Below are positions 12,257-26,970 of a stretch of 64,000 bases of DNA, in pieces. How positions within the stretch are numbered: the first letter of the stretch is position 1; every line of letters begins with the position of its first letter. The translations under genes were made by a program, and so were the position numbers. Below the pieces are notes generated by a model. It had not been told where the DNA came from. It searched no databases and saw only the letters and a program-made list of their open reading frames with translations. This stretch comes from Polyangium sp. 15x6 (GTDB lineage: Bacteria; Myxococcota_A; Polyangia; Polyangiales; Polyangiaceae): positions 62,001-126,000 of the forward strand of contig NZ_JASBQE010000016.1 of NCBI RefSeq assembly GCF_029960785.1. Direction: 5' to 3'.

Positions 12257-12273
12257 GTTAACAATCGCTAACG
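12257..12273 (-). promoter_or_regulatory. GTTAA direct-repeat site upstream of lipoprotein operon
   Basis: Read on the minus strand, this is GTTAG-CGATT-GTTAA, two half-sites with a 10-base period. The same CGATTGTTAA ten-mer occurs at 16565-16574. Paired GTTAA sites also occur at 24821/24832 and 26955/26966. It lies 44 bases before the start of the lipoprotein gene at 12317. This layout is typical for OmpR-family regulators; the link to the regulator at 26201-26914 is inferred. Confidence 0.45.
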
Positions 12274-12316
12274 AGAACACAACAACAGGTTCACCGGATT
12301 GGCGCACTGTCGTCAC

Positions 12317-13381
12317 ATGACGACGCTTGCGCTTGGCTTGCCACGAAAAACGCGAAAAAAACCTCGAACGCGGCACGCCGCCGCGGCTTTGGCCGGGCTT
12401 TTTTGTTTGCCTCTCCTCGCCTGCTCCAGCTCCGACGGCGGGAGCGCGCCCGGGGCCGGCGGCAATGGCGGTGAAGGCGGCGGCCCGCCCGACGTCGAGC
12501 CCGGCGACTCTTCCATTCTCGTTGGCTCGTTCCAGGTGCGCCTCGTCGCGCCGGTCCCTGCGTCCGGGAATACGCCGGCGACGCCGGGGAGCACCGCGGT
12601 GCTCGGCAAGGTATACGACGGCCCCACGCCCTCGCAGATCATCTGGGAGGAAGCCGCAAAGGAAGGCGCGTGCAAGCTCTCCACGCCGCGCGTCCCTTTT
12701 TGCAGCACGCCTTGCGGCGGCAGCGCGGCCTGCGTCGAGGACGATCAATGCCAGGACTACCCGCTCGCGCACGGCGCCGGCAAGGTCACGGTCAAGGGCC
12801 TGCATACGGAATCGGGCGACGAGGGGTTCAGCATGGATCCCGTGGTGAACGCCTATCAACCGCCCGCCGGCGTGAAGCTCCCCTACCCTGCGTTCGCCGA
12901 GGGGGACGTGATCTCCTTCCAGGCGGCTGGTGATTACTTCAGCGCCTTCACGCTCGAAGCCGCCGGCATCGCTCCCCTCGACCTCACGAGCGAGACGCTC
13001 ACGCTCGAATCGGGCAAACCCGTCTCCCTCGCGTGGACACCACCGACGAAGGCCGGGAGCTCTCGCATTTACGTGAAACTCGACATCAGCCATCACGGCG
13101 GCACGAAGGGCATGATCGAGTGCGACACGGACGACACCGGCTCCCTGGAGATTTCCGCCGCGCTCCTGACGAAACTCATCGACCTCGGGATCGCGGGGTA
13201 TCCTTCCATCGTGGTCGCTCGGAAATCGACGGGCTCCACGACCATCAAAGAGGGCCGCGTCGACCTCGTCGTCACCTCGTCGATCGAGGAAGCCGTGCAG
13301 ATCCCCGGGCTCACGTCGTGTACCGTCGACGAAGATTGCCCGAGCGGTCAGATCTGCCAGGCCGATCTCACCTGCAAATGA
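12317..13381 (+). CDS. Secreted lipoprotein, first gene of the envelope locus
   Basis: A 354-residue lipoprotein with signal peptide and lipobox LPLLAC (about residue 34), then a short Gly/Asn-rich linker. The mature part is mostly beta-like and contains several Cys pairs (CSTPCGG, CVEDDQCQ). A C-terminal Cys-rich segment (TVDEDCPSGQICQADLTC) resembles the short disulfide modules common in myxobacterial surface proteins. No enzymatic motif was seen. The first ATG in a good context gives MTTLALG at 12317; an upstream in-frame ATG at 12299 would spoil the signal peptide. Likely the first gene of an operon running to 16531. Confidence 0.7.
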   Translation: MTTLALGLPRKTRKKPRTRHAAAALAGLFCLPLLACSSSDGGSAPGAGGNGGEGGGPPDVEPGDSSILVGSFQVRLVAPVPASGNTPATPGSTAVLGKVYDGPTPSQIIWEEAAKEGACKLSTPRVPFCSTPCGGSAACVEDDQCQDYPLAHGAGKVTVKGLHTESGDEGFSMDPVVNAYQPPAGVKLPYPAFAEGDVISFQAAGDYFSAFTLEAAGIAPLDLTSETLTLESGKPVSLAWTPPTKAGSSRIYVKLDISHHGGTKGMIECDTDDTGSLEISAALLTKLIDLGIAGYPSIVVARKSTGSTTIKEGRVDLVVTSSIEEAVQIPGLTSCTVDEDCPSGQICQADLTCK

Positions 13382-13389
13382 ATTTCCTC

Positions 13390-13430
13390 CGGATGCCGAG
13401 CATCCGAAGAATGAGCTGGAACGAATCCAG
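13390..13430 (+). other. Two intercistronic stem-loops
   Basis: Right after the stop codon at 13381 lies CGGATGC-CGA-GCATCCG (13390-13406), a perfect 7-bp stem. CTGGA-ACGAA-TCCAG (13416-13430) follows. There is no T-run, so these look more like mRNA processing or partial attenuation signals than a terminator. The next gene starts at 13454 with a good AAAGGAG ribosome site. Confidence 0.45.
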
Positions 13431-13453
13431 CGAGCTCTAGAAAGGAGCTTGTC

Positions 13454-14443
13454 ATGAACGCACACCGATGGGCGCTGCCCCTCTTGGGCAGCGCGGTGCT
13501 CTCGTTTGTCGTGGGTTGCGGTAGCAGCAGTGACAATGATCTCGGCCTCGGGAACGGCGGCTCCGGGAGCAGCGCGTCCTCCGCGTCGAGCGGCAATGGC
13601 GGCGCGGGCGGCGCCGGTGGCACGGGCGGCGAAGGCACCGGCGGAAGTGGTGGAGGCAATGGCGGCAGCGGCGGCGACGCGGGCGCCGGCGGCGGCGGCA
13701 CGACCGAAAAGTTCAGCTTCTTCGTGACGAGCTTGCGCGCCTTGCAGGAGCTCTCGGGCAATTCCGAGGGGTTCGGCGGCGATCTCCGCTTCGGCGAGAC
13801 GGGCGCCGGCGCCGGGCTCCGCGGCGCCGACAAGATCTGCGCGACGATCGCCGAAAAGAGCATGCCGGGCGCGGGGCAGAAGCCGTGGCGCGCGTTCCTG
13901 AGCGCCACCGCGGGCGAGGACGGGCAGCAGGTCGACGCCAAGGATCGCATTGGCGAGGGCCCCTGGTACGACCGGCTCGGGCGATTGCTCGCGGCGAACA
14001 AGACCGATCTCCTGACCGAGCGCCCCACGGGGGCCGACGCGGCCATCATCAATGATTTCCCGAACGAGGACGGCGTCCCGAACCACCAGCCCGATCCGAA
14101 TCAGGGGCAGGTCGACAACCACGACATGCTCACCGGTACGAACGCGCAAGGTACGCTCTTCAGCGCGACCGCGACATGCAAGGACTGGACGAGCAACCTC
14201 GGTGATCTCGCGAGCGAAGGCCGGCCGCGCGTGGGGCATTCGTGGCCGCGGTTCGGCGGCGGCGGCGGCCCGGGGCCGGGCGGCGGGGATGGCAGCATGG
14301 CGAACTGGATGTCCTCGCTCAACGAGTCCGGCTGCGCGCCGGGCGTGAACCTCATCGAAATGGGCGGGCCCCAGCCGGGCGCGGTCACGGTGGGCTCCGG
14401 CGGCGGATACGGCGGCTTCTATTGCTTCTCGCTCGTCCCCTGA
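13454..14443 (+). CDS. Gly-rich surface lipoprotein with lectin-like domain
   Basis: A 329-residue lipoprotein with lipobox VVGC (Cys22) and a long Ser/Gly linker to about residue 82. A globular domain of about 245 residues follows. Its pattern (GLRGADKICATIAE, PWRAFLSATAGEDGQQ, TNAQGTLFSATATCKDWTS, then a terminal GGFYCF) resembles the endostatin/C-type-lectin-like secreted domains of Deltaproteobacteria. The fold assignment is by eye. It is the second gene of the putative operon, 39 bases before the PEP-synthase-like gene. Ligand unknown. Confidence 0.65.
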   Translation: MNAHRWALPLLGSAVLSFVVGCGSSSDNDLGLGNGGSGSSASSASSGNGGAGGAGGTGGEGTGGSGGGNGGSGGDAGAGGGGTTEKFSFFVTSLRALQELSGNSEGFGGDLRFGETGAGAGLRGADKICATIAEKSMPGAGQKPWRAFLSATAGEDGQQVDAKDRIGEGPWYDRLGRLLAANKTDLLTERPTGADAAIINDFPNEDGVPNHQPDPNQGQVDNHDMLTGTNAQGTLFSATATCKDWTSNLGDLASEGRPRVGHSWPRFGGGGGPGPGGGDGSMANWMSSLNESGCAPGVNLIEMGGPQPGAVTVGSGGGYGGFYCFSLVP

Positions 14444-14482
14444 CGCTCGCGACTCGACTTCGGCTTTCTTCGGGAGGAAATC

Positions 14483-16531
14483 ATGTCCTTACACAAACGC
14501 GCCGCCACGGCGCTGGGTCTCGTTTTGTTCGTCGCCGCGCTGCCACTCGCGTGCAGCGACACCGCCGCGCCCGCGGGCCCCGTGTTCGAATGCCAGCTCG
14601 CGAGCGGCAGCGAATCCCCGGAGTTCTTGCAGGTGATCGGCTGCAACGGGGACTTCCAGGCGCTCGCCTCGGAGCCCCTCCGCGCCGATCTGCCGGGCGC
14701 GCGCTCGGTCAAGGTCGTCCTGGATCAGGCCGACGACAATGCGCTCTACTTCCAGAACAGCGTCCTCTACAAGATCCACTACGAGTTCGCCTCGAAGCAC
14801 CTCTCGGGCAATGACCTTCCGCTCGTGCCCGAGCTGTCGAGCTTCAACGCGACCGAGTATTACACGCCGGATCGCCGCTTCTTGCTCGGCGCGGTGACGT
14901 ACTACGAGGGCCCGAAGGTCTGGGCGCTCGAGATCGCCCCGTACGACACCGCCTCGGCGGCCATGATCACGACGCTGTACGAGACGGTCGCGAAATCGGC
15001 CTACTTCGGCGGAAATCTCTTCTTCCACCCCACGTCGGACGCGGTGGCCGTCGAGGCGGACAAACTCGGCACGGACGTCCCCGTGAAGACCACGGACGAG
15101 CTTTATGCGGCGATCGATTACCAGCCGCTCTCGCTCGGCTCCTCCATGGGCCGGCTCCGCTTCCTGAAGGCCGCGGATCTCGATACCGAGTACGTCTCGC
15201 ACGAGGACATCGTGGTGCTCGACGAGGCGCCGAACGACATCTCCGTCATCCAGGGCCTCGTCACCGAAGAATTCCAGACGCCGCTCTCGCACGTAAATGT
15301 GCTCTCCCAGAACCGAGGGACGCCGAACATGGGGCTCCGCCATGCCATGACGAATCCCACGCTGCGGGGGCTCGAAGGCAAATTGGTCGAGCTCACGGTG
15401 GGCGCCTCGACGTGGGGCGTCCGCGAGGTCACGCTCGAAGAGGCCCAGGCCTTCTGGGACGCGCACAAGCCCGAGCCCGTCGTGCTCCCGACGCTGGATC
15501 TATCGGTCACGGGCCTGTGGAACCTCGAGGACGTGACGCCCGAGCCCGCGGCCGGCGCGTCGCTCCGGGACGCGATCAAGAAATCGGTGCTCGCCTTCGG
15601 CGGAAAGGCCGCGCATTACTCGATCCTCGTGCGGACCGAGGACGTCCCGATCCAGAAGGCCTTCGCGATCCCGGTCCATTACTACGACCAGTTCATGAAG
15701 CAGAACGGGTTCTACGACCAGATCGACGCGCTGCTCGCGGATCCCACGTTCCAGGCGGACGCGGCCGTCCGTGATCAGAAGCTCGCGGACTTGCGCAAGG
15801 CCATGGAGGCGGCTCCCGTCGACGCCGCGTTCCAGGAGCTGCTGAAGGAGAAGATCGCGGCCGAATACGGGACGCACAAGATGCGCTTCCGCACCAGCAC
15901 GAACAGCGAGGATCTCGAGGGTTTCCCCTGCGCCGGCTGCTACGAGTCGCATACGGGAGACCCGACCGACTGGCCGGACGTGCTCGACGCCATCCGCGAG
16001 ACCTACGCGAGCGCCTGGCTCTTCCGCACGTTCGAGGAGCGCAGCTATTACGGCATCGATCACAAATCGATCGGCATGGCCCTGCTCGTGCACCACAACT
16101 TCCCGGACGAGGAGGCGAACGGCGTGGCCGTCACGGCGAATCCGTTCGACGAGGCGGGGGTCGATCCCGCATTTTACGTGAACGTGCAGTACGGCGGCGA
16201 CGTGGAGGTCGTGGCCCCGCCGCCCGGCGTGACCAGCGATCAGTTCCTCTACTACTTCACGCAGCCGAACCAGCCGATCACGTACCTCACGCATTCGAGC
16301 TTGCTGGCCGAGGGCGAGCGTGTCCTCACGACGGCGCAGATTCATCAGCTCGGCGTGGCCCTCGACGCCATCCACGCGCGCTTCTCCCCCGCGTATGGGC
16401 CGGCCGCGGGGAACAAGGGCTGGTACGCGATGGACATCGAATTCAAGTTCGACGACGAGGCCGCCCCGGGCGAGACGCCCACGCTCTACATCAAGCAAGC
16501 ACGCCCCTACCCCGGCCGCGGGGACGAGTGA
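14483..16531 (+). CDS. Exported PEP-synthase/glucan-water-dikinase-like lipoprotein
   Basis: A 682-residue lipoprotein with signal peptide and lipobox PLAC (Cys24). A swivelling phosphohistidine domain lies at about residues 235-310, with candidate catalytic His270 in PLSHVNVLSQNRGTPNM. An ATP-grasp-like pyruvate-phosphate-dikinase N-type domain spans about 340-680, with RFRTSTNSEDLEGF near 468 and a terminal TLYIKQARPYPGR. The order His-domain then ATP-domain matches plant glucan water dikinases and is the reverse of PEP synthase. There is no PEP/pyruvate-binding barrel. Because it is exported, ATP supply is unclear; it may use another donor or be a binding protein. A GGGAGGA ribosome site precedes the ATG. 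Confidence 0.82.
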   Translation: MSLHKRAATALGLVLFVAALPLACSDTAAPAGPVFECQLASGSESPEFLQVIGCNGDFQALASEPLRADLPGARSVKVVLDQADDNALYFQNSVLYKIHYEFASKHLSGNDLPLVPELSSFNATEYYTPDRRFLLGAVTYYEGPKVWALEIAPYDTASAAMITTLYETVAKSAYFGGNLFFHPTSDAVAVEADKLGTDVPVKTTDELYAAIDYQPLSLGSSMGRLRFLKAADLDTEYVSHEDIVVLDEAPNDISVIQGLVTEEFQTPLSHVNVLSQNRGTPNMGLRHAMTNPTLRGLEGKLVELTVGASTWGVREVTLEEAQAFWDAHKPEPVVLPTLDLSVTGLWNLEDVTPEPAAGASLRDAIKKSVLAFGGKAAHYSILVRTEDVPIQKAFAIPVHYYDQFMKQNGFYDQIDALLADPTFQADAAVRDQKLADLRKAMEAAPVDAAFQELLKEKIAAEYGTHKMRFRTSTNSEDLEGFPCAGCYESHTGDPTDWPDVLDAIRETYASAWLFRTFEERSYYGIDHKSIGMALLVHHNFPDEEANGVAVTANPFDEAGVDPAFYVNVQYGGDVEVVAPPPGVTSDQFLYYFTQPNQPITYLTHSSLLAEGERVLTTAQIHQLGVALDAIHARFSPAYGPAAGNKGWYAMDIEFKFDDEAAPGETPTLYIKQARPYPGRGDE

Positions 16532-16564
16532 GCGCGACGTTCCCGACGCCGCGAGATTCGCACG

Positions 16565-16591: not shown

Positions 16592-16649
16592 ATCAGCTCC
16601 GCAGTCCCGACATACAGTCGACTCGAACCTTGGACTTGGGGAGTGACTG

Positions 16650-18299
16650 ATGAAAATGCGGTTCCTGCATGGTGTGCTACCGTTCGCTTCGCTTTTGACC
16701 CTGGCGATCCAGGGCTGCGGCTCGACCGATCCCAGCGCCGAGACGGGCGCGGGCGCGGCGGGAGGCGGCGGATCGGGCGGCAGCGCCGGTGAAGGCGGCG
16801 GCGGAAACGGCGGCGAGGGCGGCAGCGGTTCGGAGGATCCCGATTACGCGGCCGCCTTCCCGCAGGATCGGGTTCCTCGTATCGACATCACCATTTCGCC
16901 CGAGAACTGGCAGGCGATGGTCGCCGACATGACCGACATGCTCGGCACGTTCGGCGAAAGCATGGGCGGACCGGGCGGGCCGGGTGGACCGGGTGGGCCC
17001 GGCGGCGGGCCGCCGCCGGAGCTCACCGAGGCTTGTAATGGCCTCGCGGAAGGTGACGCTTGCACGTACACGCTCAATGGCGTCGAAACGCAAGGGACGT
17101 GCACGGCCGCGATCGGCACCCTGCTCTGCTTCCCGGAGGGAGGCCCCGGCGGCCCCGGCGGCCCGGGTGGACCGGGCGGCGAAGGCGGCGTCGATCTGCT
17201 CCCCCGCACGCCCATCTACGTCGAGTGTGACGTCAAGACCGAGGATCGGAGCTGGCAGCACGTCGGCATTCGCTTCAAGGGCAATTCGAGCCTGGCCATG
17301 ACCTGGAGCCAGGGCGTCTGGAAGCTGCCGCTGCGCTTCAACTGGGACAAGTACGAGGACACGTACCCGGAGACGAAGAACCAGCGGTTCTACGGGTTCG
17401 ACGCGCTCAGCTTCTCGAACTCCGCCAACGATTCCTCGCTCCTGCGCGACAAGATCGGCACCGAGGTCTTCGTGAACGCGGGGATCCCGGCGCCCGCGAC
17501 GGCGTTTTATCGCGTGTTCATCGATCACGGCGAGGGCCTGAAGTATTTCGGGCTGTATACGGGGATCGAGCTGCCCTCGGACGAATCGTTCATGGACACG
17601 CATTTCGGCGGCCACAAGGGTAACCTCTACAAGCCCGACGGCGCAGGCGCGCGGTGGCAGACCTGGGACCCCGACACGCTCGGCAAGGAAAACAACGAGG
17701 ACGAGGCCGATTTTTCGGACGCGCAGGCGCTCTTCGACGCGCTGCACGCCGACAAGACCGACGCCGCGGCCTGGCGCGCCGGCCTCGAAGCCCGCCTCGA
17801 CGTCGATCGTTTCTTGCATTGGCTCGCGCTGAACGCGGTGATCGAGGACTGGGATCAGTACGGCCGCATGCCGCACAATTATTACATGTACGCGGATCCG
17901 AAGAAGGACGCGCAATTCACGTGGATCCCCTGGGACCACAGCTTCGCGTTCCCTGCCGCGTCGGGCGGAGGGTTCGGCGGGCAGTCCATGTCGCTCGCGA
18001 TGACCGAGATCACCGAGCAATGGCCGCTCATCCGGTACCTGCTCGACGACCCGGTGTACCTCGAGAAATATCGCGGCTACGTCGCGCTCGCGGTCGAGAA
18101 GGACTACGAGGCCGCGAGCATGGAGACGCGATTCAAGGCCGCCCACGACCTCATCGCGCCGTACGTCGTCGGCGCGGAGGGCGAGCAGCCGGGGTACACG
18201 TTCCTCGCGTCGCCCGCCGCGTTCGACGAGGGCCTCGCCGGCGTGATCGCTCATGCGAAGGAGCGGCCGGCGGACGTGGCCACGTATCTCGGACCGTGA
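16650..18299 (+). CDS. CotH-family kinase lipoprotein with collagen-like repeats
   Basis: A 549-residue lipoprotein with signal peptide and lipobox IQGC (Cys23). CotH proteins are atypical kinases outside the cytoplasm that phosphorylate coat or surface proteins. The N-terminal CotH strand motif (RIDITISPENW), the GIRFKGNSS motif near residue 210, and the catalytic HNYYMY ... WIPWDHSF block near residues 410-432 are present. Two GGPGGPGG runs (about residues 109-121 and 168-183) frame a small Cys-containing insertion. This is unusual for CotH and resembles collagen-type linkers. It is followed 45 bases later by the DUF4956 gene, and a second CotH is on the opposite strand at 23667. Confidence 0.88.
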   Translation: MKMRFLHGVLPFASLLTLAIQGCGSTDPSAETGAGAAGGGGSGGSAGEGGGGNGGEGGSGSEDPDYAAAFPQDRVPRIDITISPENWQAMVADMTDMLGTFGESMGGPGGPGGPGGPGGGPPPELTEACNGLAEGDACTYTLNGVETQGTCTAAIGTLLCFPEGGPGGPGGPGGPGGEGGVDLLPRTPIYVECDVKTEDRSWQHVGIRFKGNSSLAMTWSQGVWKLPLRFNWDKYEDTYPETKNQRFYGFDALSFSNSANDSSLLRDKIGTEVFVNAGIPAPATAFYRVFIDHGEGLKYFGLYTGIELPSDESFMDTHFGGHKGNLYKPDGAGARWQTWDPDTLGKENNEDEADFSDAQALFDALHADKTDAAAWRAGLEARLDVDRFLHWLALNAVIEDWDQYGRMPHNYYMYADPKKDAQFTWIPWDHSFAFPAASGGGFGGQSMSLAMTEITEQWPLIRYLLDDPVYLEKYRGYVALAVEKDYEAASMETRFKAAHDLIAPYVVGAEGEQPGYTFLASPAAFDEGLAGVIAHAKERPADVATYLGP

Positions 18300-18344: not shown

Positions 18345-19028
18345 ATGATGGAATGGCTCGAACCGCTCACCCAGGGGGATGCATTCGAATGGCGCAAGGC
18401 GCTCGTCTCCCTCCTGCTCGCCTTCGGGCTGGGCCAGGCCATCGCGGTCGTGTACATGGCGACCTTCCGCGGTCTCTCGTATTCGCGCTCCACGGTGCAC
18501 GGAATGGCCATGGGCAGCGTGATCACGTGCATGCTGATGCTCGCCGTGGGCAGCAGCATCGCCGCGGGGATCGGCATGGCGGGGGGGCTCTCGGCGGTCC
18601 GGTTCCGCACGTCGCTGCGTGATCCGCGCGATATCATCTTCATCTTCGCGGCTCTCGGCGTGGGGATGGCGACCGGCGCCCAGGCGCACGGCGCGGCGAT
18701 CCTGGGCACGATCATCTTCGCGATCGGATTCGTGCTGCTTCATTTCACCGGCTATGGCGCGCGCCATCAGCCCGATGGTCTCCTCCGCTTCGCGGCGCCC
18801 GCCGGGCCGGAGGCGGAGGAGGCCATCATGAAGATCCTGAGGAGCCATTGCAGGTCCTTCGCGCTCGTCACCCTGCGCGAGGCGGCGCAAGGGACGATCA
18901 TGGAGCATGCGTACCAGATCAGCGTCCGTACGCCGGATCTGCGCTCGCCGCTCGTCTCGAATCTGAAGGCCATTCCGGGGGTGCAGGACGTCGCCTTGCT
19001 GCTGCAGGAGCCGACGCTGGATCTGTAG
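18345..19028 (+). CDS. DUF4956 inner-membrane protein
   Basis: A 227-residue protein with about four or five membrane helices in residues 18-140. The hallmark GLSAVRFRTSLRDPRDIIFIF places it in DUF4956. The C-terminal 70 residues look like a small cytosolic ferredoxin-like domain, as in MgtC-type proteins. The family is commonly encoded beside CotH kinases and VTC-fold proteins, and both are here. The start is the ATG-ATG pair at 18345 after GAGGA. It ends two bases before the HlyD-like gene, indicating tight co-translation. Function is unknown. Confidence 0.88.
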   Translation: MMEWLEPLTQGDAFEWRKALVSLLLAFGLGQAIAVVYMATFRGLSYSRSTVHGMAMGSVITCMLMLAVGSSIAAGIGMAGGLSAVRFRTSLRDPRDIIFIFAALGVGMATGAQAHGAAILGTIIFAIGFVLLHFTGYGARHQPDGLLRFAAPAGPEAEEAIMKILRSHCRSFALVTLREAAQGTIMEHAYQISVRTPDLRSPLVSNLKAIPGVQDVALLLQEPTLDL

Positions 19029-19030
19029 CC

Positions 19031-21097
19031 ATGAAATCGACGAAGACCGTATATCGATTGCAGGCGGCCCTTCAGCGCGTCGCGCCCGGGCTCTGCCTCG
19101 TCTCCACCCTCGGCGCTGCGGCGTGGCTGCACTTCGGCGAGGGCGGCGGGCGCGGGCACATCGTGGGGTTCGCCGAGACGACGCCCGAGGCGATCGCGCC
19201 GATCGAAGTCGCCAAGATCGTCGCGGTCCACGTGCATGTCGGCGACGCGGTCACGCCGGGGCAGATCGTCGTGGAGCTCGACACGGCCGCGATCGACGCC
19301 GAGATCGCCGTCGCCGAGGCGGAGAAGGCGCAACTCGAGGCGGACGTGCGCGCGTCCGAAGCGGAGATCTTGCAAAAGCTCGACATGGACCTCGCGTCGC
19401 TCGAGCGCGAGGCGGCGAAGCAACGCGAGGAGCACCTGCAGGTGACCGCCACGGCGAAGGCGCTCGACAGCGAGCTTGCGCGGGTGAAGCAGCTCGTGGA
19501 GGACCGGCAGGTGGTCTTCGAGGAGCTCGCCAAGGTCGACCTCGAGCGCACCGCAGCCGCGGCGCTCGCCGCGGAGAAGCCGAGGACGTTGAACCTGCTC
19601 ACGAAGCAGATCAAGGCGGCCGAGGCGCGGCGGAAGGCGGTCAAGCAGGAGGGCTCCGCGACGGCAGACAAGCTCGCCGCGGACTTGCGTTTCGCCGAGC
19701 GGAACATCGAGCTCCTGAAGAAGAGGCGCGAGGCGTACATGCTCCGCGCGTCGCGGCCCGGGCGCGTCGCGGCGATCTTCAAACGGCCTGGCGAGGTCGC
19801 CGTGGCCGGCGATCCGGTGCTCAACATCGTGAGCGGAGGCGCGCGTGTCGTCGCCTGCGTGCCCGAGCGCGTGGCGCTCGGCCTGCGCGAGGGAGATGAT
19901 GCGAAGCTGTGGATCCGTGGGCAAGCGAGTGCCCCGCTCCTCGGAAAAACCGTCACGCTCGGCCCCGTCGTCGCGGAATTGCCCATTCGTTGCTGGACGG
20001 CGCCGAACCGTCCGACGTGGGGCCGTGAAGTCACGGTCGAGCTCGAAGGCGCGGTGAACGTGCTCGCGGGGCAAGCCTTCGATGTCGTGTTCCAGCCGTC
20101 CACCATGCCGCTCGCATCCCCACCCGTCGCCCCCACGAAGGCCGCGACGAATGCGGCGAACGTGAACGCGGCCCATGCGGCGAACCTTCCGGCGAGCGTG
20201 CTCCCGATGATGCTTCCGGACGCGCTGGCGAAACGGACGCGATTCGAGCCGTCCGGGATTCTCGCGCGGGAGGCCGAAGGTCGTTATCTCGTCGTCAGCG
20301 ACGATACGGGCCAGAAGGACAAGGACACGGAGGGCGCGCCCTGGGTTTTTGGAATGTCCAAGGACGGCGCCATCGAGCCGGAGCCTTTGCAGGTGGACGG
20401 CATCGACGAAGTCTCGGACGTCGAGGCGATTGTCGCAGGCGATGCAGGCGAGATCTACCTCTTGTCGTCGCAGAGCTACAGCAAGCGAGGGAAGCGCAAG
20501 CCCGCGCGGACGGCGCTCTTGCGCCTCCGGAAGGAGGGACGAGGTTTTCGTGTCGACGGGGAGGCCCATATCGCGGAGCTGCTCGACGCGGACCCCGCGC
20601 AGGCCGCGGCGCTCGGGCTCCCGAATGGAACACGAGCGCTCGACATCGAGGGACTCGCCTACCGAGGAGGCTCCCTTTACTTCGGCCTCAAGGCTCCGCT
20701 CGACGCGCAAGGCAATGCCATGATCTGGCAGGTCACCGCGCCGAGCGCGCTCTTCGCATCGAAGCCCCTGGCGAGCGCCGGCGCCTCGCTCTGGGCGCGC
20801 GTCCGTGTCGACGTGGAGGTCGCGGGCAAACCCACGCCGGGCGGCATTTCGGATCTGTTGTTCCTGCCCGACGGAGGCCTCGCCATTTCGTCGACGCCCT
20901 CGACGGCGGACGGTGACGCGGGGGCGCTCTGGCGCGTCGATGCGCCGGCGTCCGGCGCGCTCACGCCGGTGCTCGTGCGGAAATGGGCGCTCAAGCCCGA
21001 AGGAATCGCGCCGTCGCTCTCCGCGGGCAAACTCATGGTCGTCTTCGATACGGGCAGCACCGCCCCGTTGTTCGAGGAGGTGCCATGGGCACGGTGA
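19031..21097 (+). CDS. HlyD-like periplasmic adaptor fused to DUF3616-like domain
   Basis: A 688-residue protein. The N-terminus has one membrane helix (about residues 15-36). A biotinyl-lipoyl half follows (VHVGDAVTPGQIVVELD), then a long coiled coil (about 85-240), the second lipoyl half and a beta-barrel, typical of HlyD/RND adaptors that bridge to TolC. After a Ala/Asn-rich linker at about residue 370-395, the C-terminal ~290 residues read like a DUF3616-type beta-propeller (SDVEAIVAGDAGEIYLLS; LDIEGLAYRGGSLYFGLK). I do not know another adaptor with this tail. It overlaps the TolC-like gene by 13 bases. Confidence 0.82.
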   Translation: MKSTKTVYRLQAALQRVAPGLCLVSTLGAAAWLHFGEGGGRGHIVGFAETTPEAIAPIEVAKIVAVHVHVGDAVTPGQIVVELDTAAIDAEIAVAEAEKAQLEADVRASEAEILQKLDMDLASLEREAAKQREEHLQVTATAKALDSELARVKQLVEDRQVVFEELAKVDLERTAAAALAAEKPRTLNLLTKQIKAAEARRKAVKQEGSATADKLAADLRFAERNIELLKKRREAYMLRASRPGRVAAIFKRPGEVAVAGDPVLNIVSGGARVVACVPERVALGLREGDDAKLWIRGQASAPLLGKTVTLGPVVAELPIRCWTAPNRPTWGREVTVELEGAVNVLAGQAFDVVFQPSTMPLASPPVAPTKAATNAANVNAAHAANLPASVLPMMLPDALAKRTRFEPSGILAREAEGRYLVVSDDTGQKDKDTEGAPWVFGMSKDGAIEPEPLQVDGIDEVSDVEAIVAGDAGEIYLLSSQSYSKRGKRKPARTALLRLRKEGRGFRVDGEAHIAELLDADPAQAAALGLPNGTRALDIEGLAYRGGSLYFGLKAPLDAQGNAMIWQVTAPSALFASKPLASAGASLWARVRVDVEVAGKPTPGGISDLLFLPDGGLAISSTPSTADGDAGALWRVDAPASGALTPVLVRKWALKPEGIAPSLSAGKLMVVFDTGSTAPLFEEVPWAR

Positions 21098-22521
21098 AAA
21101 GATTCGCAGCCCTGCTCCCCGCAGCGCTGCTCCCGGCTCTCGCAGGCTGCACCGCTCCGCTGCAAATGTCGGGCTCCGAGCGCGCGATCGCCATGTATCG
21201 CGAGAGCCTCGGGCCCCGGGGAGCGCTCAACGTCCGCCACGACGAATCCACGCGCCGCGAGGCGGAGCGGAGCCAGACGGGTGCCTCCGACGCGGCGCCA
21301 CGCGTGCTCACCGTCGAGGACGCGGTCGTGCTGGCCAAGAAAAACAGCGCGCATCTCTCGGCGCTCGAAGCGGGCGCGGCCACGGCCGAGGCGGGCGTCG
21401 CCGCGGCGAACAAGCACACGAATCCGGAGCTCCGGATCTCGCAGATCCGCCTCAATCAATTCGTCGAGGGCGAGCCGCAGATCCGCACGGCGGTTCGTTT
21501 TTCGCCGGATCGGCCGGGGGACGTGGACGCAGAGGTCGCGGAGGCGCGCGCCGAGCAGGCCGAGGCGCAGGCCGAGGCGCGCGCCGAGGAGATTACCATC
21601 GAGGCCGATGTTCGCTGGCTCTTCGACGACGTAGCGCTGATCGACGCGGAGATCGAGGCGGCACGCGCGGTCGCCGAGGCGCGAAGGGCCCTCGCGGCGC
21701 AGATGAAGAACCGCCTCGCCGCGGCGGAGGCGACCTCGATCGACGAGGCCATGGCCGAGCTCGCGGCGGTCGAGGCCGAATCGGATCTGGCCGAGCAACA
21801 GGCGCACCGGCGCGAGGTGCTCGGCGAATTGCTCGATCGGATCGGCCTCGAACCCGGGGCGTCCGTGGAGGTCGTCGGCGAGCCGCCGCTCGCGTGGCCT
21901 CCTCCGGATCTCCCTTCGGAGCAGGCTCTCATCGAAGAGGCGCTGCGGCGCAGGCCCGAGGTCGCCATTGCAGCCGCGCGGATCGACGCGGCCGACGCCC
22001 GCGCGTACGCCGAGCGCGCGCGGCGTTTTCCGTGGTTTTCGTTCGTGGAGGTCGGGTATCAATTCACGCCGGGCACGCTGGCCACGCCGGGCACGCTGAC
22101 GGGCCTCGCCTGGACGTTCCAGGCGGGCGTGGAGCTGCCAATTTTCGACACGAATCGCGCGGGCGCCGCCGCTGCCGGCGCGGCGAAGACCTCGTCCGAG
22201 CGCGCCCTCGCCGGCGAGGTCGAGCGGGTCGCCCGCGAGGTGCGCGCGCGCCTGCGCGAGGCCGAGGCCTCGCGCACGCTCGTCACCGAATTCCGCGCCC
22301 GCGCCCTCTCCGCGGCCGCACAGGCCGGTACCGCGTCGAAACGAGCGCTCGAAGGCCGAAACGTCGACGTCATCGAGGCGCTCTCCGTCGACGCGCAACG
22401 CGTCAAGGTCGAGCTCCGCCTCCTCGCGCTCGTGCGCCGTTATCGCACCGCCGTCTCCGAGCTCCGGCGCGCCGTCGGCGGCCGCTTCCCGGCCGCCGCC
22501 CCCCGCGGCGCCAGGTACTGA
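21085..22521 (+). CDS. TolC-family outer-membrane efflux lipoprotein
   Basis: A 478-residue protein with lipobox LAGC (Cys22). It has the TolC pattern: two repeats of long amphipathic helices (LTVEDAVVLAKKNSAHL; PSEQALIEEALRRRPEV) separated by short beta strands (ELRISQIRLNQF; SFVEVGYQFTPG). It would form the outer-membrane channel for the adaptor encoded just upstream, whose 3' end carries its GAGGAGG ribosome site. No ABC, RND or MFS pump gene accompanies the pair. The only multi-helix membrane protein in the operon is DUF4956. Confidence 0.88.
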   Translation: MGTVKRFAALLPAALLPALAGCTAPLQMSGSERAIAMYRESLGPRGALNVRHDESTRREAERSQTGASDAAPRVLTVEDAVVLAKKNSAHLSALEAGAATAEAGVAAANKHTNPELRISQIRLNQFVEGEPQIRTAVRFSPDRPGDVDAEVAEARAEQAEAQAEARAEEITIEADVRWLFDDVALIDAEIEAARAVAEARRALAAQMKNRLAAAEATSIDEAMAELAAVEAESDLAEQQAHRREVLGELLDRIGLEPGASVEVVGEPPLAWPPPDLPSEQALIEEALRRRPEVAIAAARIDAADARAYAERARRFPWFSFVEVGYQFTPGTLATPGTLTGLAWTFQAGVELPIFDTNRAGAAAAGAAKTSSERALAGEVERVAREVRARLREAEASRTLVTEFRARALSAAAQAGTASKRALEGRNVDVIEALSVDAQRVKVELRLLALVRRYRTAVSELRRAVGGRFPAAAPRGARY

Positions 22522-22550
22522 GCATGGGTCTCATGTCGAAGCGGGGTCGC

Positions 22551-22855: not shown

Positions 22856-22896
22856 AACGGTTGCCCGATGGGACCCCTGCTCGTCGCCAGGTGACG

Positions 22897-23652
22897 TCAG
22901 CCGGGAATGCGCGCATCCGGGAGCGTCAGCTCCGCGGTCACTCCATAACAATACTTCGAGAAGGAATAGCGGATCAGGTCGAGCCGCTGGACGAGCGAGA
23001 CCATCCACCGCGGCGGGCGCCGCTCGAATTTCAGTTCGAGGACACAAACCGGCTCCTCGGTCCGCGTCTGCGCCCGGTGATCGATCGGCCGCCACCGCCC
23101 CGGGATCGCTTCGAGATCGAGTGATTCTTGCGGCTGCACCGCGATCTTCCGATCGAACGTGAGCCGCGCGTAGGTATCGATCTCGCTGATGTAGGCCTCG
23201 CGCTCGTACTCGACGAGCAGCACCGGGCGAATGTGGTGCCGGTGATACGGCGCGAGGAACCGCATGGCCCCCGACCGCGCGCCGGGCGGGAGCGCGGCGA
23301 GCGCGGATTCCTTGCCGGCGAGCACGTCCCGCCACGCGGCCGCGGGCATGGCGGCGCGCGTCTTGACGATGACGTCGAGCACGCGCCGTTTGACCTCGAG
23401 GAAGACCGGGCTCTCCTTGCTCGCGGGATAACAGCGCGCCCGCAGCTTGAATCGATCGGCCTGCTCCCGCTCGTTGGCCCAGAAGAGGTCGTAGCGATCC
23501 GTGTCGAAGTACAGCGATCGAATTCGATATGTCCCGTCGGGCCCGGCGTATTTGTCGACCTTCGACGTCGCGCGCGCCGTGGCGCGGACGGCGGGGACGA
23601 GCCCTTCCGGGACCAAGTATTTGTACTCGTAACGCTCGATGATGTTGTCCAC
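22897..23652 (-). CDS. VTC-domain (polyphosphate-polymerase-fold) protein
   Basis: A 251-residue triphosphate-tunnel protein. The basic and acidic strands that line the tunnel are all visible: RYEYKYLV, YRIRSLYFDT, RFKLRARCY, FLEVKRRV, LLVEYEREAY, RLTFDRKI and VLELKFERRPP. Related yeast Vtc4 makes polyphosphate from ATP. Bacterial stand-alone VTC proteins near CotH and DUF4956 have no settled function. It lacks a signal peptide, so the active site is probably cytoplasmic. The start is taken as GTG at 23652 with GAGGCG upstream, 14 bases after the CotH stop. Sequence upstream in this frame lies inside the CotH gene. Confidence 0.88.
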   Translation of the reverse strand: MDNIIERYEYKYLVPEGLVPAVRATARATSKVDKYAGPDGTYRIRSLYFDTDRYDLFWANEREQADRFKLRARCYPASKESPVFLEVKRRVLDVIVKTRAAMPAAAWRDVLAGKESALAALPPGARSGAMRFLAPYHRHHIRPVLLVEYEREAYISEIDTYARLTFDRKIAVQPQESLDLEAIPGRWRPIDHRAQTRTEEPVCVLELKFERRPPRWMVSLVQRLDLIRYSFSKYCYGVTAELTLPDARIPG

Positions 23653-23666
23653 GGCGCGCCTCGTTT

Positions 23667-24797
23667 TCAGGGCGTGGGGGCGATCTTGTCGCTGCGCACG
23701 GTCACGATGTTGCGGAGCTCGGTGATGCTCGCGTCGAAATCGGCGAGGTCCTTGCTCGTCTGCTCCCCCGAGCCCGCCGTGTGCAGCACCGCGTCCGCCT
23801 GGTTGATGACCGCCTGCATGGAGTTCTCGTCCCACGCGGTCCGGGCAAGCTCGGTGAGCTGCGTGTGGAACTCCATGTCGAGCGCCTCGATCGCGCGGAG
23901 CCGGAGCGGCAGCTTGGTCACCGGCGTGGTCTCGGGGTCGAACGCCGGATCATCGAGGATGCGATCCATCCCGTGGGGCATGAACACGAGGAGCCCGGTG
24001 GCGGGGTTGTTGTAAATGTAATGGTTGTTCGCCCGGAACGCGAAGCCGTCCCAGTGGCCGAGCAGCGCTTCGAGGGCGTAGCTCTTCATGAACCGGCCGA
24101 GATCGAGCCGCTTTTCGAGCGCGTCGGCGAACTCCGCGTCGGGCGTGTCCTGGATGATCTGGGCGAGCGCGAGGAGATCGTCGCGGGTCCGGCCGTCCTT
24201 TTTTTCGTCCTCGAGCTCCATGTGTTCGATGTCGTCGACGAAATCGCCGCAGCAGGGGCCCTCGTACAGGTTGCCCTCGGCGAATTCTTCGCCGAAGTGG
24301 CTGCGGAGGAAATCCTTGTCGATGGCCTCGACGACCACGTAGATCCCCTTGTCGACGCCGTTCAGCGTCACCTGCGCGTGCGCCACCCGTGCGGCGGGGA
24401 TGCCGGCGCGCAGGTGCACGTCGGAGCCGAGCCGGCTGCGCAAAAAGCTGGGATCCTGCTTCGAGCTGTTGAGGATGAGCTTGTTCAGCCCGTAGAGCTT
24501 GGCCTGATCGTCGAACTCGTCGAACTTGACGGAAAAGCTCGGCTTGTCGTCGAGATCCACGAGCGTGTTGCCCTTCTGTCGGATGCCGGATCCCGCGACG
24601 AGCTCGCCGTCGTAGACGATGTCGCAAGGGACGCGCTCGTCGAGATTGCTCCCGAGCGTGCCGAGGTACGTCGAAGCGACGGTGATCTCCACCTGGTGGA
24701 GCTTGGCCGGGTCGAAGACCGACGCCACGGGATCCTCGGCGATGCAACCCGTGAAAGCCGATGTGAGGAGGAGGATCGAAGCGAGACGGTATCGCAT
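23667..24797 (-). CDS. CotH-family kinase lipoprotein (second copy)
   Basis: A 376-residue lipoprotein with lipobox FTGC (Cys18). The CotH features are HQVEITVAS at the start, GSGIRQKGNT near residue 70, KLILNSSKQDPSFLRSRL, and the catalytic-like block NNHYIYNN ... FMPHGMDRIL near residues 255-280. It belongs to a different CotH branch from the one at 16650, which has IPWDHS instead. It is co-directional with the VTC gene (14-base gap) and with the two-component genes upstream. A GTTAA direct repeat lies 22-41 bases before its start. Confidence 0.85.
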   Translation of the reverse strand: MRYRLASILLLTSAFTGCIAEDPVASVFDPAKLHQVEITVASTYLGTLGSNLDERVPCDIVYDGELVAGSGIRQKGNTLVDLDDKPSFSVKFDEFDDQAKLYGLNKLILNSSKQDPSFLRSRLGSDVHLRAGIPAARVAHAQVTLNGVDKGIYVVVEAIDKDFLRSHFGEEFAEGNLYEGPCCGDFVDDIEHMELEDEKKDGRTRDDLLALAQIIQDTPDAEFADALEKRLDLGRFMKSYALEALLGHWDGFAFRANNHYIYNNPATGLLVFMPHGMDRILDDPAFDPETTPVTKLPLRLRAIEALDMEFHTQLTELARTAWDENSMQAVINQADAVLHTAGSGEQTSKDLADFDASITELRNIVTVRSDKIAPTP

Positions 24798-24818
24798 GCC
24801 CGCGAGGGTACGAGATTC

Positions 24819-24838
24819 GTGTTAACGGCGTGTTAAGC
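24819..24838 (+). promoter_or_regulatory. GTTAA direct repeat before CotH-VTC genes
   Basis: The sequence GTGTTAACGGC-GTGTTAAGC holds two GTTAA half-sites at 24821 and 24832 with an 11-base period. It lies in the 35-base gap between the histidine-kinase stop (which it overlaps by a few bases) and the CotH start. Phased half-sites of this kind are typical for OmpR/CpxR-type regulators. Confidence 0.5.
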
Positions 24839-26197
24839 GGACGGAAGATGTGCAATCGGGAGCCGCACGCGCGCGCGGGTGCCCTCGTTCGGCGCGCTGA
24901 CGAGCTCGATCTTGCCGCCGTGGGCGTCGACGATCCGCTTCGCGAGCGGGAGCCCGAGGCCGAGCCCCCCGGTCGCGCGGGTGCGGCTCTTGTCGGCCCG
25001 GAAGAACGGCCGGAACACGCGCGAGAGGTCCTCTGCCGCGATCCCGATGCCTTTGTCGATCACCTCGACCGTGATGTCCTCGCCGGCGCGCGCGACGAGC
25101 TCGACCGCCTCCGAGGCCTTGTCCGTGTACTTGTGGGCATTCTCGAGCAGGTTGTCGAAGACACGCCGCAAAAGTACGGGATCCGCGTCCACCGAGGGCA
25201 AATTCGCGGGCACGTCGACCCTGAGCGTCCGCTCGGGGTGCGCCGCGCGGAAACGCGACGCGGCATGCGTGAGCAATTCATGGACGTCGACGCGCTCGCG
25301 GCGCAGCGGGGGAATGCCAGCGTGTGATTCCACATCCTCGAGATCGAGCCGCGCGGCCGTGAGGACGTCGGAGATGAGCCGCTCGAGCTCGTCGAGATCC
25401 CCGGCAATTTCGCCGAGCATCTCCCGCGCGACGGCGACGTCGCCCTCCGCCTCGGAGACGAGCGCGAGGGCCATTCGAATGCGCGAGAGCGGCGTGCGCA
25501 GCTCGTGCGAGACGTTCGCGAGCAGCTCCCGTTCGGCCCGCAAAAGCTCGGTCACGCGCTCGGCCATCTCGTCGAACGCGCGCGACACGTCGCCGAGCTC
25601 GTCGCGGTTCGGCAGAGCGGCGCGGGCCTTCAGATCGCCGCCGCCGAACGCGCGCGCCGCGGAAGACAGGCGACGCAGCGGCCGCGTGAGCGTGCGCGCG
25701 AGCAGCCAGGACGAGATTCCCACGACCACGAGGACCATCGTGATCAAGCGAGGCCCGGTGATGGGCGGGCCCGGCGGTCGATGCGGGGCAAATTGCTCGA
25801 TGCGCCCCTCGCGACCATCGGGAAAACGCACGGGTTTTACGTGACAAGGTGGTGGCGGTGGTCGATCCTCGAGGAGTTTCCACGGCCTGAGCGGCATACA
25901 GCGGGGCGCGCCGGGCGCGTTCGTCGCGAAGACGGCGCCGTCCGGATCGACCACGGTGACCGAGGCGTGCAGCTCCCGCTGCATGAGATCGAGCACACCC
26001 TGGAGCTCGCGCGGTCTGTCGATCTCCCGCGTGATCATCTCGTGAAAGAAGCGAACCTGGTGTTCGTGCGGAAACCCCTTGGGCCGGTTGATCTCGAGGA
26101 GCGCGATGAAGCCCGCCGCGACCACCGCGAACTGCGCGAGGCCCACGAGGTAGATGCGGAGGGCCAGGCGCGTGCGCAGGACGTCACGGAGGGCCAT
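24833..26197 (-). CDS. CpxA-like sensor histidine kinase
   Basis: A 454-residue membrane sensor. A helix at about residues 15-34, a Pro-rich periplasmic domain (to about 145), a second helix (about 150-170), then HAMP (RTLTRPLRRLSSAARAF). The HisKA box has phosphoacceptor His231 (SHELRTPLSR). The HATPase_c has N (DNLLENAHKY), G1 (DKGIGI), F (FRPFFR) and G2 (GLGLGL) boxes. It starts three bases after the regulator's stop. The periplasmic domain is rich in His and Pro (PPPPPCHVKP), so a metal or envelope-stress signal is possible. It lies directly upstream of the CotH-VTC genes. Confidence 0.93.
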   Translation of the reverse strand: MALRDVLRTRLALRIYLVGLAQFAVVAAGFIALLEINRPKGFPHEHQVRFFHEMITREIDRPRELQGVLDLMQRELHASVTVVDPDGAVFATNAPGAPRCMPLRPWKLLEDRPPPPPCHVKPVRFPDGREGRIEQFAPHRPPGPPITGPRLITMVLVVVGISSWLLARTLTRPLRRLSSAARAFGGGDLKARAALPNRDELGDVSRAFDEMAERVTELLRAERELLANVSHELRTPLSRIRMALALVSEAEGDVAVAREMLGEIAGDLDELERLISDVLTAARLDLEDVESHAGIPPLRRERVDVHELLTHAASRFRAAHPERTLRVDVPANLPSVDADPVLLRRVFDNLLENAHKYTDKASEAVELVARAGEDITVEVIDKGIGIAAEDLSRVFRPFFRADKSRTRATGGLGLGLPLAKRIVDAHGGKIELVSAPNEGTRARVRLPIAHLPSA

Positions 26198-26200
26198 GGC

Positions 26201-26914
26201 TCACATCCGGTCGATCGCGAACACGTATCCGATGCCGCGCACGGTCTTGATGATCCGGGGGTTTTTCGGGTCGTCGCCGAGCTTCTTCCGGAGGTGCGAG
26301 ACGTGCACGTCGATCGAACGATCGAAGGCCTCGTCCGCGCTGCCGCGCACGAGATCCACGAGCTGCTCGCGCGTGAGCACGCGCCCGGCCCGCTCGGCGA
26401 GGGCGTGCAGGAGGTCGAACTCGTAGGTCGTGAGCGCGAGCTCCGTCTCGCCGAAGATGGCCCGGCGGGCGCAAGGGTCGATGGTGAGGGAGCCGGCGAC
26501 GATCTGGCGCTCGGCCGGGGGGCCCGCGAGGCCGCGGGCGCGGCGCGCGTGCGCCCGGATGCGCGCCAGAAGCTCGCGCGCGGAGAAGGGCTTGGGCAGG
26601 TAGTCGTCCGCGCCGCCTTCGAGGCCCATGACGCGATCGGCCTCTTCGCCGCGCGCGGTTACCATGATGATCGGGGTGTGGACGCGGGCGCGGAGGCGCT
26701 GGCAAACCTCGAAGCCGTCGATCTCGGGGAGCATGAGGTCGAGGAGGACGACGTCGGGGTGCTCGCGCAGGACGGCGGCGATGCCGTCGCGGGGATCGGT
26801 CGCCAACGTGACGCGGACGTTGTGGGATTCCAGGTATCTCGCCGTGAGTCGAGCGAGCTTCTCGTCGTCCTCGATGAACACGATCGAGGTCGAGGTTCTC
26901 TCCACGGGCATCAT
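26201..26914 (-). CDS. OmpR-family response regulator
   Basis: A 237-residue transcription regulator. The receiver has the acidic pair FIEDDEK, phosphoacceptor Asp59 (LLDLMLPEIDG), the Thr/Ala position (VTARGEE) and the Lys in PKPF. The C-terminal winged helix (about 135-235) is of the OmpR/PhoB type (DRSIDVHVSHLRKKLGDD; TVRGIGYVF) and is close in character to CpxR. It is the first gene of an operon with the sensor kinase. It probably autoregulates through the paired site at 26955-26970, 41-56 bases upstream. Confidence 0.93.
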   Translation of the reverse strand: MMPVERTSTSIVFIEDDEKLARLTARYLESHNVRVTLATDPRDGIAAVLREHPDVVLLDLMLPEIDGFEVCQRLRARVHTPIIMVTARGEEADRVMGLEGGADDYLPKPFSARELLARIRAHARRARGLAGPPAERQIVAGSLTIDPCARRAIFGETELALTTYEFDLLHALAERAGRVLTREQLVDLVRGSADEAFDRSIDVHVSHLRKKLGDDPKNPRIIKTVRGIGYVFAIDRM

Positions 26915-26954
26915 CGGCGCAGACTACCACCCGCGCCGCGGGCGGAGTGCGTCG

Positions 26955-26970
26955 CTAACAGTTGCTTAAC
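26955..26970 (-). promoter_or_regulatory. GTTAA direct repeat upstream of the two-component operon
   Basis: The minus strand reads GTTAA-GCAACT-GTTAG, two half-sites with an 11-base period, as at 24821. It lies in a 300-base divergent gap between the regulator (starting at 26914) and the large surface-protein gene at 27215. Nothing else structured was recognised in this gap. Confidence 0.5.

Follow-up and report, generated by a model that had tools for sequence, protein, structure and literature searches.

In tripartite efflux pumps and type 1 secretion systems, a HlyD-type periplasmic adaptor works with a TolC-type outer-membrane channel, and a review (PMC8277102) names three families of inner-membrane engine for such conduits: ATP-binding cassette (ABC), resistance-nodulation-division (RND) and major facilitator superfamily (MFS) proteins. 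For the yeast VTC complex, PMC9911596 proposes that polyphosphate synthesis is coupled to passage through the membrane part of the complex. The accessory genes of Pel clusters in Gram-positive bacteria include CotH, a polyphosphate polymerase, DUF4956 and DUF4832 (PMC7112168), the polymerase presumably being of the VTC type, and a Clostridium perfringens gene table (PMC2879425) places VTC-domain genes beside membrane proteins of 222-226 amino acids (aa) and CotH: in CP4_0460-0465, two VTC genes are each followed by such a membrane protein, named ‘tubulin/FtsZ’ and probably a misnamed DUF4956 protein, and then by CotH. Here we describe a locus of the myxobacterium Polyangium sp. 15x6 (contig NZ_JASBQE010000016.1, positions 62,001 to 126,000; this whole stretch of 64,000 nucleotides, part of a 13.4-Mb genome, is called the window) in which a VTC-domain protein, DUF4956, an unusual HlyD-type adaptor and TolC are encoded together with exported kinase-like lipoproteins. 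We propose that it specifies a trans-envelope polyphosphate synthase-exporter in which a polymerase replaces the pump, and in which CotH-type kinases and a dikinase-like protein phosphorylate surface proteins or glycans with the polymer; to this reading as a whole we assign a probability of roughly 0.2, and its parts are graded separately below.

The locus shares features with each of these systems and departs from each. As in tripartite efflux and type 1 secretion, the adaptor (688 aa; positions 19031..21097, + strand; HlyD_3, 26.1 bits) and the TolC-type channel lipoprotein (21085..22521, +; PF02321 (OEP), 88.1 bits) are encoded in one operon, but no ABC, RND or MFS protein recurs here, and DUF4956 (18345..19028, +) with VTC (22897..23652, -) stands in the inner-membrane slot. 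As in the eukaryotic VTC complex (Vtc1/3/4), there is a Vtc4-type catalytic domain with counterparts of R264, R266 and E426 and, presumably, a membrane partner for the polymer; unlike in that complex, no SPX domain was matched, the partner would be DUF4956, and an adaptor and TolC are added. CotH, a polyphosphate polymerase and DUF4956 occur together as in the Gram-positive Pel accessory module (PMC7112168), joined here by an exported dikinase and a route through the outer membrane; no Pel family was found among the ten cluster proteins scanned against Pfam, a scan that included no search aimed at pel genes.

Adaptors of this kind lie beside VTC genes across the phylum. We searched 319 genomes with an alignment of eight diverse adaptors, which share a recognisable C-terminal motif, searched the same genomes for VTC, and compared the 99 adaptor matches listed at E≤7.6e-18 with the 116 VTC places at E≤2.6e-26. 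Adaptor matches reaching the C-terminal motif were within 4.5 kb of a VTC gene in 67 of 69 cases, against 1 of 30 for matches that did not reach it (the 4.5-kb and motif-end, position 336, cuts were chosen after the lists were seen), and all 43 matches at E≤1e-30 lay within the same distance; the adaptor sits beside VTC in 66 of the 319 genomes. The genomes are related to each other, and these and the other linkage counts are uncorrected for relatedness. Adaptor counts made at the level of loci are partly circular, as the model was built from adaptors of the same loci; the sweep is the check on them, its eight query rows also having come from such loci. Whole genomes were swept in the searches of relatives and of the phylum, while the other linkage counts come from loci fetched via DUF4956, VTC or the dikinase, where genes were called with a simple caller, family matches came from hidden Markov model searches of genes or of six frames, some labels of metagenome-assembled genomes (MAGs) are doubtful and some loci are truncated.

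In the 30 best adaptor loci, viewed with 1.5-kb flanks, DUF4956 lies immediately upstream on the same strand in all 30, and VTC is in the flank in 29, in the order VTC-DUF4956-HlyD, the window being the exception; a propeller-type tail was seen in 22 and TolC in 21. Of 116 relatives, 28 have a match to DUF4956 and 26 a match to the window adaptor (E≤1e-3); at E≤1e-38 the adaptor is matched in eleven, ten of which have it adjoining DUF4956 and one of which (G020) has the tail domain alone; the other matches (E 1e-8 and higher) are, judged by coverage, generic adaptors. The association is asymmetric, the adaptor being nearly always found with DUF4956 while DUF4956 is often found without the adaptor. 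In a tree of 76 DUF4956 proteins, 51 of the 54 adaptor-linked members fall in one 52-row clade (support 100/97), and the adaptor label changes 4 times compared with a mean of 19.4 after shuffling, values to be read with the caveat that some branches are long and that near-copies aid clustering. By this shared phylogeny, DUF4956 and the adaptor have been inherited jointly. Taken together, VTC, DUF4956, TolC and this particular HlyD adaptor, which often has a propeller-type domain, are a conserved operon across Myxococcota. In genome searches of one genus mate, G001, we found no match to DUF4956, the adaptor, VTC, the dikinase-like lipoprotein or the neighbouring lipoprotein LipoA (see below), as expected if the five form one unit, and this strain provides a natural comparison.

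Such adaptor-TolC genes might nevertheless belong to an ordinary efflux pump, with the transporter gene at another place in the genome, and be present here by chance or through co-regulation. Unlinked pumps are able to function with TolC and adaptors; in L106 a partial adaptor match lies beside a dikinase gene, without DUF4956; and two genomes, G265 and G272, carry a motif-reaching adaptor but gave no VTC match. The first-pass annotation of this DNA had proposed that DUF4956, the adaptor and TolC might form a non-canonical conduit, and suggested a gene-neighbourhood search; run over the 319 genomes, the search came out in favour of that idea, revealing neither adaptor-TolC genes that mostly lack DUF4956 nor a constant pairing with a classical pump. 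No ABC, RND or MFS family was among those matched by at least two of the 107 neighbours scanned (of 131 listed proteins beside the adaptor modules of alignment A4), single-member families being partly covered, and no such transporter was among the ten scanned cluster proteins, which would also be compatible with an unlinked partner. The linkage to VTC in the sweep, the unbroken adjacency to DUF4956 and the shared DUF4956 phylogeny rule out a chance neighbourhood and largely refute the ordinary pump, which we regard as very improbable. VTC, DUF4956, HlyD and TolC thus probably constitute a dedicated envelope-spanning unit, and on this point we are fairly confident.

If the conduit is dedicated, VTC loci in general may indicate what it carries. 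We collected 74 distinct VTC loci, a biased sample in that each was retrieved by way of DUF4956, the dikinase or VTC itself, and classed them by distances that differ by gene (3 to 12 kb). DUF4956 lies within 6 kb in 58, a Porin_O/P-like gene within 8 kb in 23, a Na/Pi cotransporter within 3 kb in 10, the dikinase within 12 kb in 29, and CotH within 8 kb in 29 (a plain tally, not a test of association); seven lack both DUF4956 and the Na/Pi transporter. The adaptor is present in 26, all with DUF4956 and 22 with TolC within 6 kb of VTC, some of these loci ending at a contig edge. Partners tend to exclude each other: the adaptor (26 loci) and the porin-like gene (23) share no locus (Fisher p=4e-6), and the Na/Pi transporter occurs with DUF4956 in 1 of its 10 loci (p=9e-7), both values being indicative, as the loci are related. 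The alternative inner-membrane partner is PF02690 Na_Pi_cotrans (63.9 and 86.8 bits in two examples), and the exported protein nearby matches Porin_O_P at 21.1 bits (cut-off 20.9), with a second copy at 19.5, under the cut-off; a thymidylate-kinase-like protein (83.8 bits) is also found. A phosphate theme thus recurs in these alternative loci through the transporter and the porin. The pattern of partners suggests interchangeable parts round one polymerase, the inner part being DUF4956 or the Na/Pi transporter and the outer part adaptor-TolC or a porin, which would place phosphate at the centre of the system.

Two variants deserve separate mention. A second VTC operon (L226, L222, L231, L227, L234) combines Porin_O/P-like, thymidylate-kinase-like (565 aa in L226), lipoprotein, VTC and Na/Pi cotransporter genes, and, lacking DUF4956, looks like a phosphate uptake or storage version. 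In L054, L055, L056 and L073, VTC-DUF4956 lies beside a protein of 936-999 aa; the L055 copy contains a CotH domain and weakly matches a beta-helix. Three of these four loci also encode a small protein (173-223 aa, hydrophobic at its start) between this large protein and VTC.

The VTC protein of the window (251 aa) is a predicted cytosolic polyphosphate polymerase. Its VTC domain (PF09359) scores 142.8 bits against a cut-off of 23 and is its only Pfam match at E≤0.1, no SPX domain being matched, and by a crude hydropathy count nearly every VTC protein listed is free of membrane segments (L217 being the exception). All six sequence matches in the PDB are Vtc4 (best 3g3q, E 1.8e-4), and in the 3g3q alignment Arg71, Arg73 and Glu206 correspond to Vtc4 R264, R266 and E426; we take Lys233 to be the counterpart of K458. 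Arg71, Glu86, Lys88, Arg151, Arg163, Glu206, Lys208 and Lys233 are kept in 71 of 71 sequences, and Arg73 in 64, with Lys in the other seven. In yeast, the triple change R264A/R266A/E426N served to make a catalytically impaired complex (PMC9911596). The suggestion of the first-pass annotation that the VTC protein could make a phosphate polymer thus gains indirect support from the exclusively Vtc4 matches and the kept catalytic residues, alongside the phosphate theme of the alternative loci.

DUF4956 scores 40.5 bits (PF16316; cut-off 30.6) and is the sole match in the window genome. An AlphaFold model from a 17-row alignment (pLDDT 77, pTM 0.55) has five long predicted helices and a C-terminal beta-alpha-beta-beta-alpha-beta domain, which resembles ferredoxin/ACT-like folds (NikR at the top, with Z 11.3 and an rmsd of 2.1 for 79 residues, and many others tied) and weakly matches the MgtC C-terminal domain (Foldseek E 7.5e-3); the fold-match rows cover this domain and barely sample the membrane part. 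Gly77, Arg88, Asp96, Gly111 and Leu165 are invariant across two divergent subfamilies, and Arg95 is present in at least 90%. On the positive-inside rule, the loop with Arg88 and Arg95 (numbered from 18,345) and the ACT-like domain of the model would lie in the cytosol, on the side where VTC is predicted to be.

These features could be accommodated by a rival scheme of phosphate overflow and sensing, in which VTC stores or senses cytosolic phosphate, DUF4956 is a regulator or an orthophosphate/pyrophosphate channel of MgtC-like layout, adaptor-TolC vents small phosphate, and no polymer crosses the envelope. The alternative partners, a Na/Pi cotransporter and a phosphate-porin-like protein, the ACT/ferredoxin-like soluble domain with its MgtC resemblance and the adjoining two-component system would all suit it. 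Its difficulties are that VTC keeps the polymerase residues, and that small phosphate should need only a porin or a transporter rather than adaptor-TolC plus a polymerase; we consider this scheme possible but unlikely. For the envelope-spanning unit of VTC, DUF4956, adaptor and TolC, polyphosphate is the cargo that we favour, at about even odds.

The front half of the adaptor matches HlyD_3 above the cut-off of 22.2, and the protein has an unusual C-terminal tail, as the first-pass annotation had remarked; PF13449 ‘phytase-like’ fits this tail slightly better than the label DUF3616 given there (27.3 bits, cut-off 27.6, against 16.8 bits, cut-off 20.6), with both below threshold. In G033 and G069, the adaptor and the tail are two separate adjacent genes, which suggests that the two domains work jointly.

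Outside the cell, one candidate is a dikinase-like lipoprotein (14483..16531, +; PPDK_N, 85.8 bits), whose model is confident (pLDDT 89) and shows an N-terminal domain of no assigned family (~40-210), a swivelling phosphohistidine-type domain (~212-330) and a C-terminal ATP-grasp domain (341-682). The ATP-grasp domain matches rifampin phosphotransferase (5hv1: Z 28.4, rmsd 2.4, 294 aligned) and phosphoenolpyruvate (PEP) synthase (2ols: Z 27.1, rmsd 2.3, 290 aligned), and the swivelling domain matches pyruvate kinase (3t05: Z 11.0, rmsd 3.0, 100 aligned) and enzyme I (1zym: Z 10.4, rmsd 4.1, 110 aligned). Across 47 sequences, His270, Lys375, Glu476, Asp477, Glu653, Gln672 and Arg674 never vary, and Arg468 is present in at least 90%; because of its motif, His270 would be the phosphorylated residue. 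The protein thus shares the ATP-grasp and swivelling phosphohistidine-type domains with PEP synthase, pyruvate phosphate dikinase, rifampin phosphotransferase and, presumably, glucan, water dikinase, and differs from them in being an exported lipoprotein with the His domain first, an unassigned N-terminal domain and no C-terminal PEP/pyruvate barrel: PPDK_N is its only Pfam match, and it ends with the ATP-grasp domain (341-682 of 682). That missing barrel, and the lipobox-like start of the window protein (LPLAC, in a lipoprotein-like signal), led us to reject a misplaced cytosolic PEP synthase. Across the family, a strict lipobox pattern is found in 33 of 69 and a relaxed one in 68 of 91, but the relaxed pattern also picks up 27 of 70 DUF4956 and 2 of 72 VTC proteins, and a number of the starts are truncated or wrongly called. 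The lipobox therefore supports predicted export for the window protein, not for every family member.

The dikinase tracks VTC. Among the relatives, VTC is present in 24 of 25 genomes with the dikinase compared with 9 of 91 without, and in the sole relative with the dikinase that lacks a VTC match (G033), VTC is cut by a contig end; across the phylum, the figures are 65 of 71 and 92 of 248 (odds ratio 18, p=3e-17, uncorrected for relatedness). The dikinase counted here is clade A, separated from the rest by a 48% identity cut chosen after the lists were seen. Distant paralogues (28-44% identity) follow VTC less closely (5 of 29 among the relatives and 9 of 17 across the phylum set), and we rejected the notion that any dikinase-like lipoprotein tracks it. 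A comparison of the two lists of matches by eye places dikinase and VTC on the same contig, no more than ~12 kb apart, in 18 of 25 relatives. Of the 80 fetched dikinase loci, 21 have VTC in their flank; among the remaining 59, 50 were tested for VTC elsewhere in the genome and 46 carry it, in some cases just past the 10-kb flank (~15-17 kb in two Nannocystis genomes). The nine left out are L116, L135, L152 and L165, which share a genome with another locus, L142/L147 (one genome), L157, L175 and L120, the strain of G003, where VTC was found.

Two lipoprotein genes accompany the dikinase. LipoA (12299..13381, +; an ATG at 12,317 is the likelier start than 12,299), an exported lipoprotein of unassigned fold for which no Pfam family was matched, is its usual neighbour, being present in 63 of 80 fetched dikinase loci and in 25 of 116 relatives (E≤1e-6). 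A DUF1554-like lipoprotein (13454..14443, +; PF07588, 22.0 bits, below the cut-off of 27.5) is present in 41 of 80 and, in the genomes of family f6 and in G033, has 66-80% identical stretches beside the LipoA and dikinase genes. The first-pass annotation had left these two out; they recur in the neighbourhood elsewhere, and we therefore count both into the set, the genes that it did list being otherwise retained. One dikinase plus LipoA pair was seen on a contig labelled as a Klebsiella pneumoniae MAG (L176), where the genes are otherwise mostly myxobacterial; this is probably a mislabelled or mixed bin.

The other exported enzymes are two CotH-type kinase lipoproteins, CotH1 (16650..18299, +; PF08757, 187.3 bits) and CotH2 (23667..24797, -; PF08757, 125.6 bits). 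The best PDB match of CotH1 is spore coat protein H (5jd9, E 7.2e-9), while CotH2 matches it at E 2.4e-7 over part of the domain. In Bacillus subtilis CotH, mutants of the catalytic aspartates D228 and D251 are inactive (PMC7821199). Two aspartates of CotH1 align with 5jd9 aspartates, equated with D228/D251 by spacing, while the alignment of CotH2 stops short of this region. The window proteins belong to the family of the Bacillus spore coat kinase, and differ from it in being myxobacterial lipoproteins beside a predicted polyphosphate polymerase.

With such enzymes present, the locus might serve surface decoration, VTC-DUF4956 supplying a phosphate donor, the dikinase phosphorylating a glucan and CotH a protein, and adaptor-TolC exporting the protein or glycan substrate. 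The dikinase, in model and structure matches, has its His domain before the ATP-grasp domain, the order which we take to be that of glucan, water dikinase, as we do for its LSHV motif; no structure of that enzyme is among the structure matches listed for the dikinase, which proves nothing either way. Also in line with decoration, the combination of CotH, polyphosphate polymerase and DUF4956 is that of the Gram-positive Pel accessories, and lamin tail domain proteins, possible surface substrates, are the commonest family among the adaptor-module neighbours (10 of 107). Against it, no glycosyltransferase is among the families matched by at least two of those 107 neighbours, and the VTC-DUF4956-adaptor order is kept where neither CotH nor dikinase is seen within reach (e.g., L210, L218, L219). 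We hold this explanation to be rather unlikely.

The synthase-exporter that we infer would work as follows. VTC, a soluble cytosolic Vtc4-type polymerase, would use ATP to build polyphosphate on the cytosolic side of the inner membrane and would feed it into DUF4956, whose conserved arginine-bearing loop and ACT-like domain would face VTC; elongation might itself move the chain across the membrane, the mechanism put forward for the yeast complex. From there, the adaptor and TolC would carry polyphosphate, or phosphate derived from it, across the periplasm and the outer membrane, the adaptor propeller near DUF4956 binding or gating the polymer. At the surface, the dikinase with LipoA and the DUF1554-like protein, and the two CotH kinases, would act on a surface protein or glycan, and these lipoproteins could possibly use the exported phosphate; that exported polyphosphate feeds the extracellular kinases is, in our estimate, doubtful. 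Computation establishes which genes are present, how far they and their order are conserved, the kept catalytic residues and the co-occurrence, whereas the membrane topology, polyphosphate as the product, its export and all events at the surface are inferences.

Several observations weigh against this scheme, at one step or another. The window genome also carries a PPK1-family kinase, so that VTC is not the only possible route to polyphosphate, and in the literature surveyed, largely as titles and extracts, we came across no experiment in which a bacterial VTC protein made the polymer. With its soluble domain resembling ACT/MgtC-type sensory folds, DUF4956 may be a regulator or scaffold. Thirty-two of the 58 DUF4956-VTC loci have no adaptor, which makes the conduit one version of a wider VTC-DUF4956 system, not its universal form, and Gram-positives without an outer membrane carry polyphosphate polymerase, DUF4956 and CotH (PMC7112168), so that the core function cannot depend on TolC. 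The phytase-like/DUF3616-type assignment of the adaptor tail is sub-threshold, four weaker or partial adaptor matches (L106, L121, L130, L145) have no DUF4956 nearby, and G265 and G272 have the adaptor without a VTC match. The dikinase occurs without VTC in 6 of 71 phylum genomes (G189, G208, G281, G303, G356, G392) and in 4 of the 50 further genomes, several of them incomplete MAGs.

In the window, the gene set spans 12,299-26,914 in two convergent blocks. The forward block (12.3-22.5 kb, +) runs LipoA, DUF1554-like lipoprotein, PPDK_N lipoprotein, CotH1, DUF4956, HlyD adaptor with its propeller-type tail and TolC, and the reverse block (26.9-22.9 kb, -) runs response regulator (RR), histidine kinase (HK), CotH2 and VTC. 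The tight spacing pointed out in the first-pass annotation is real, with gaps of 2 bp (DUF4956-HlyD), 14 bp (VTC-CotH2) and 3 bp (HK-RR) and a 13-bp overlap between HlyD and TolC genes, and, the adaptor tail excepted, Pfam scores agree with its gene identities, those of PPDK_N, both CotH, DUF4956, VTC, OEP and HlyD_3 being above their cut-offs. In one relative, G036 (L058), CotH-DUF4956-HlyD-TolC-CotH-VTC are collinear on a single strand; the block at 22.9-24.8 kb therefore looks inverted in the genus of the window, and the two blocks probably form one system separated by a local inversion. Among the fetched genomes, the nearest named relatives are Polyangium strains (Polyangium sp. y55x31 is 97% identical over the dikinase-like protein).

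The sensor HK (24833..26197, -) and the OmpR-type RR (26201..26914, -) have orthologues 86% and 97% identical in the sister genome G002 (L061:2856-4217 and L061:2139-2849, respectively), through which the pair was represented in the scan of 107 neighbours, where HisKA, HAMP, HATPase_c, Response_reg and Trans_reg_C were each matched by two or three members. In L052 (family f6), an HK-RR pair lies between VTC and DUF4956, with 30-41% similarity to the window pair, i.e. at family level; a role of the pair in the system is presumed.

The intergenic space between TolC and VTC holds one copy of a ~280-bp element, found at 10,775-11,068 and 22,562-22,841, with inverted arms of ~100 nt carrying the palindrome GAACTGCGCNNNGCGCAGTTC. 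This core palindrome is also present at 5,723, 5,841 and 35,975, and occurs 480 times in the window genome, 37-431 times in five genus mates and not at all in 14 other relatives searched; the element is a genus-specific repeat family. A tandem array at 9,639-9,969 has 42-bp spacing round another palindrome, CCTGTCGACAGG, with copies ~60-75% alike.

In the literature found, seen partly in extract and with subscription journals mostly outside its scope, the polyphosphate polymerase domain appears in a survey of the C. perfringens genome and a paper on fission yeast, and we found neither an adaptor-TolC system with DUF4956 nor a VTC domain with TolC; the VTC-DUF4956-HlyD-TolC operon, like its link with an exported dikinase, is thus apparently undescribed. 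The operon puts a polymerase and DUF4956 in the slot otherwise held by ABC, RND or MFS engines, and offers a function that can be tested for the orphan pair VTC-DUF4956. It is also relevant to the phosphate source of extracellular kinases, in that a phosphate-polymer synthase and possible exporter lies beside genes for CotH, whose ATP source is called an unanswered question in PMC7821199. Even if the cargo were not polyphosphate, many Myxococcota genomes would still encode an envelope system that has apparently not been described. Export of a polymer, if demonstrated, would be new in kind, going beyond an adaptor-TolC conduit with a new inner-membrane unit, and, if the proposal is true, a high-energy phosphate polymer would reach the ATP-poor cell surface.

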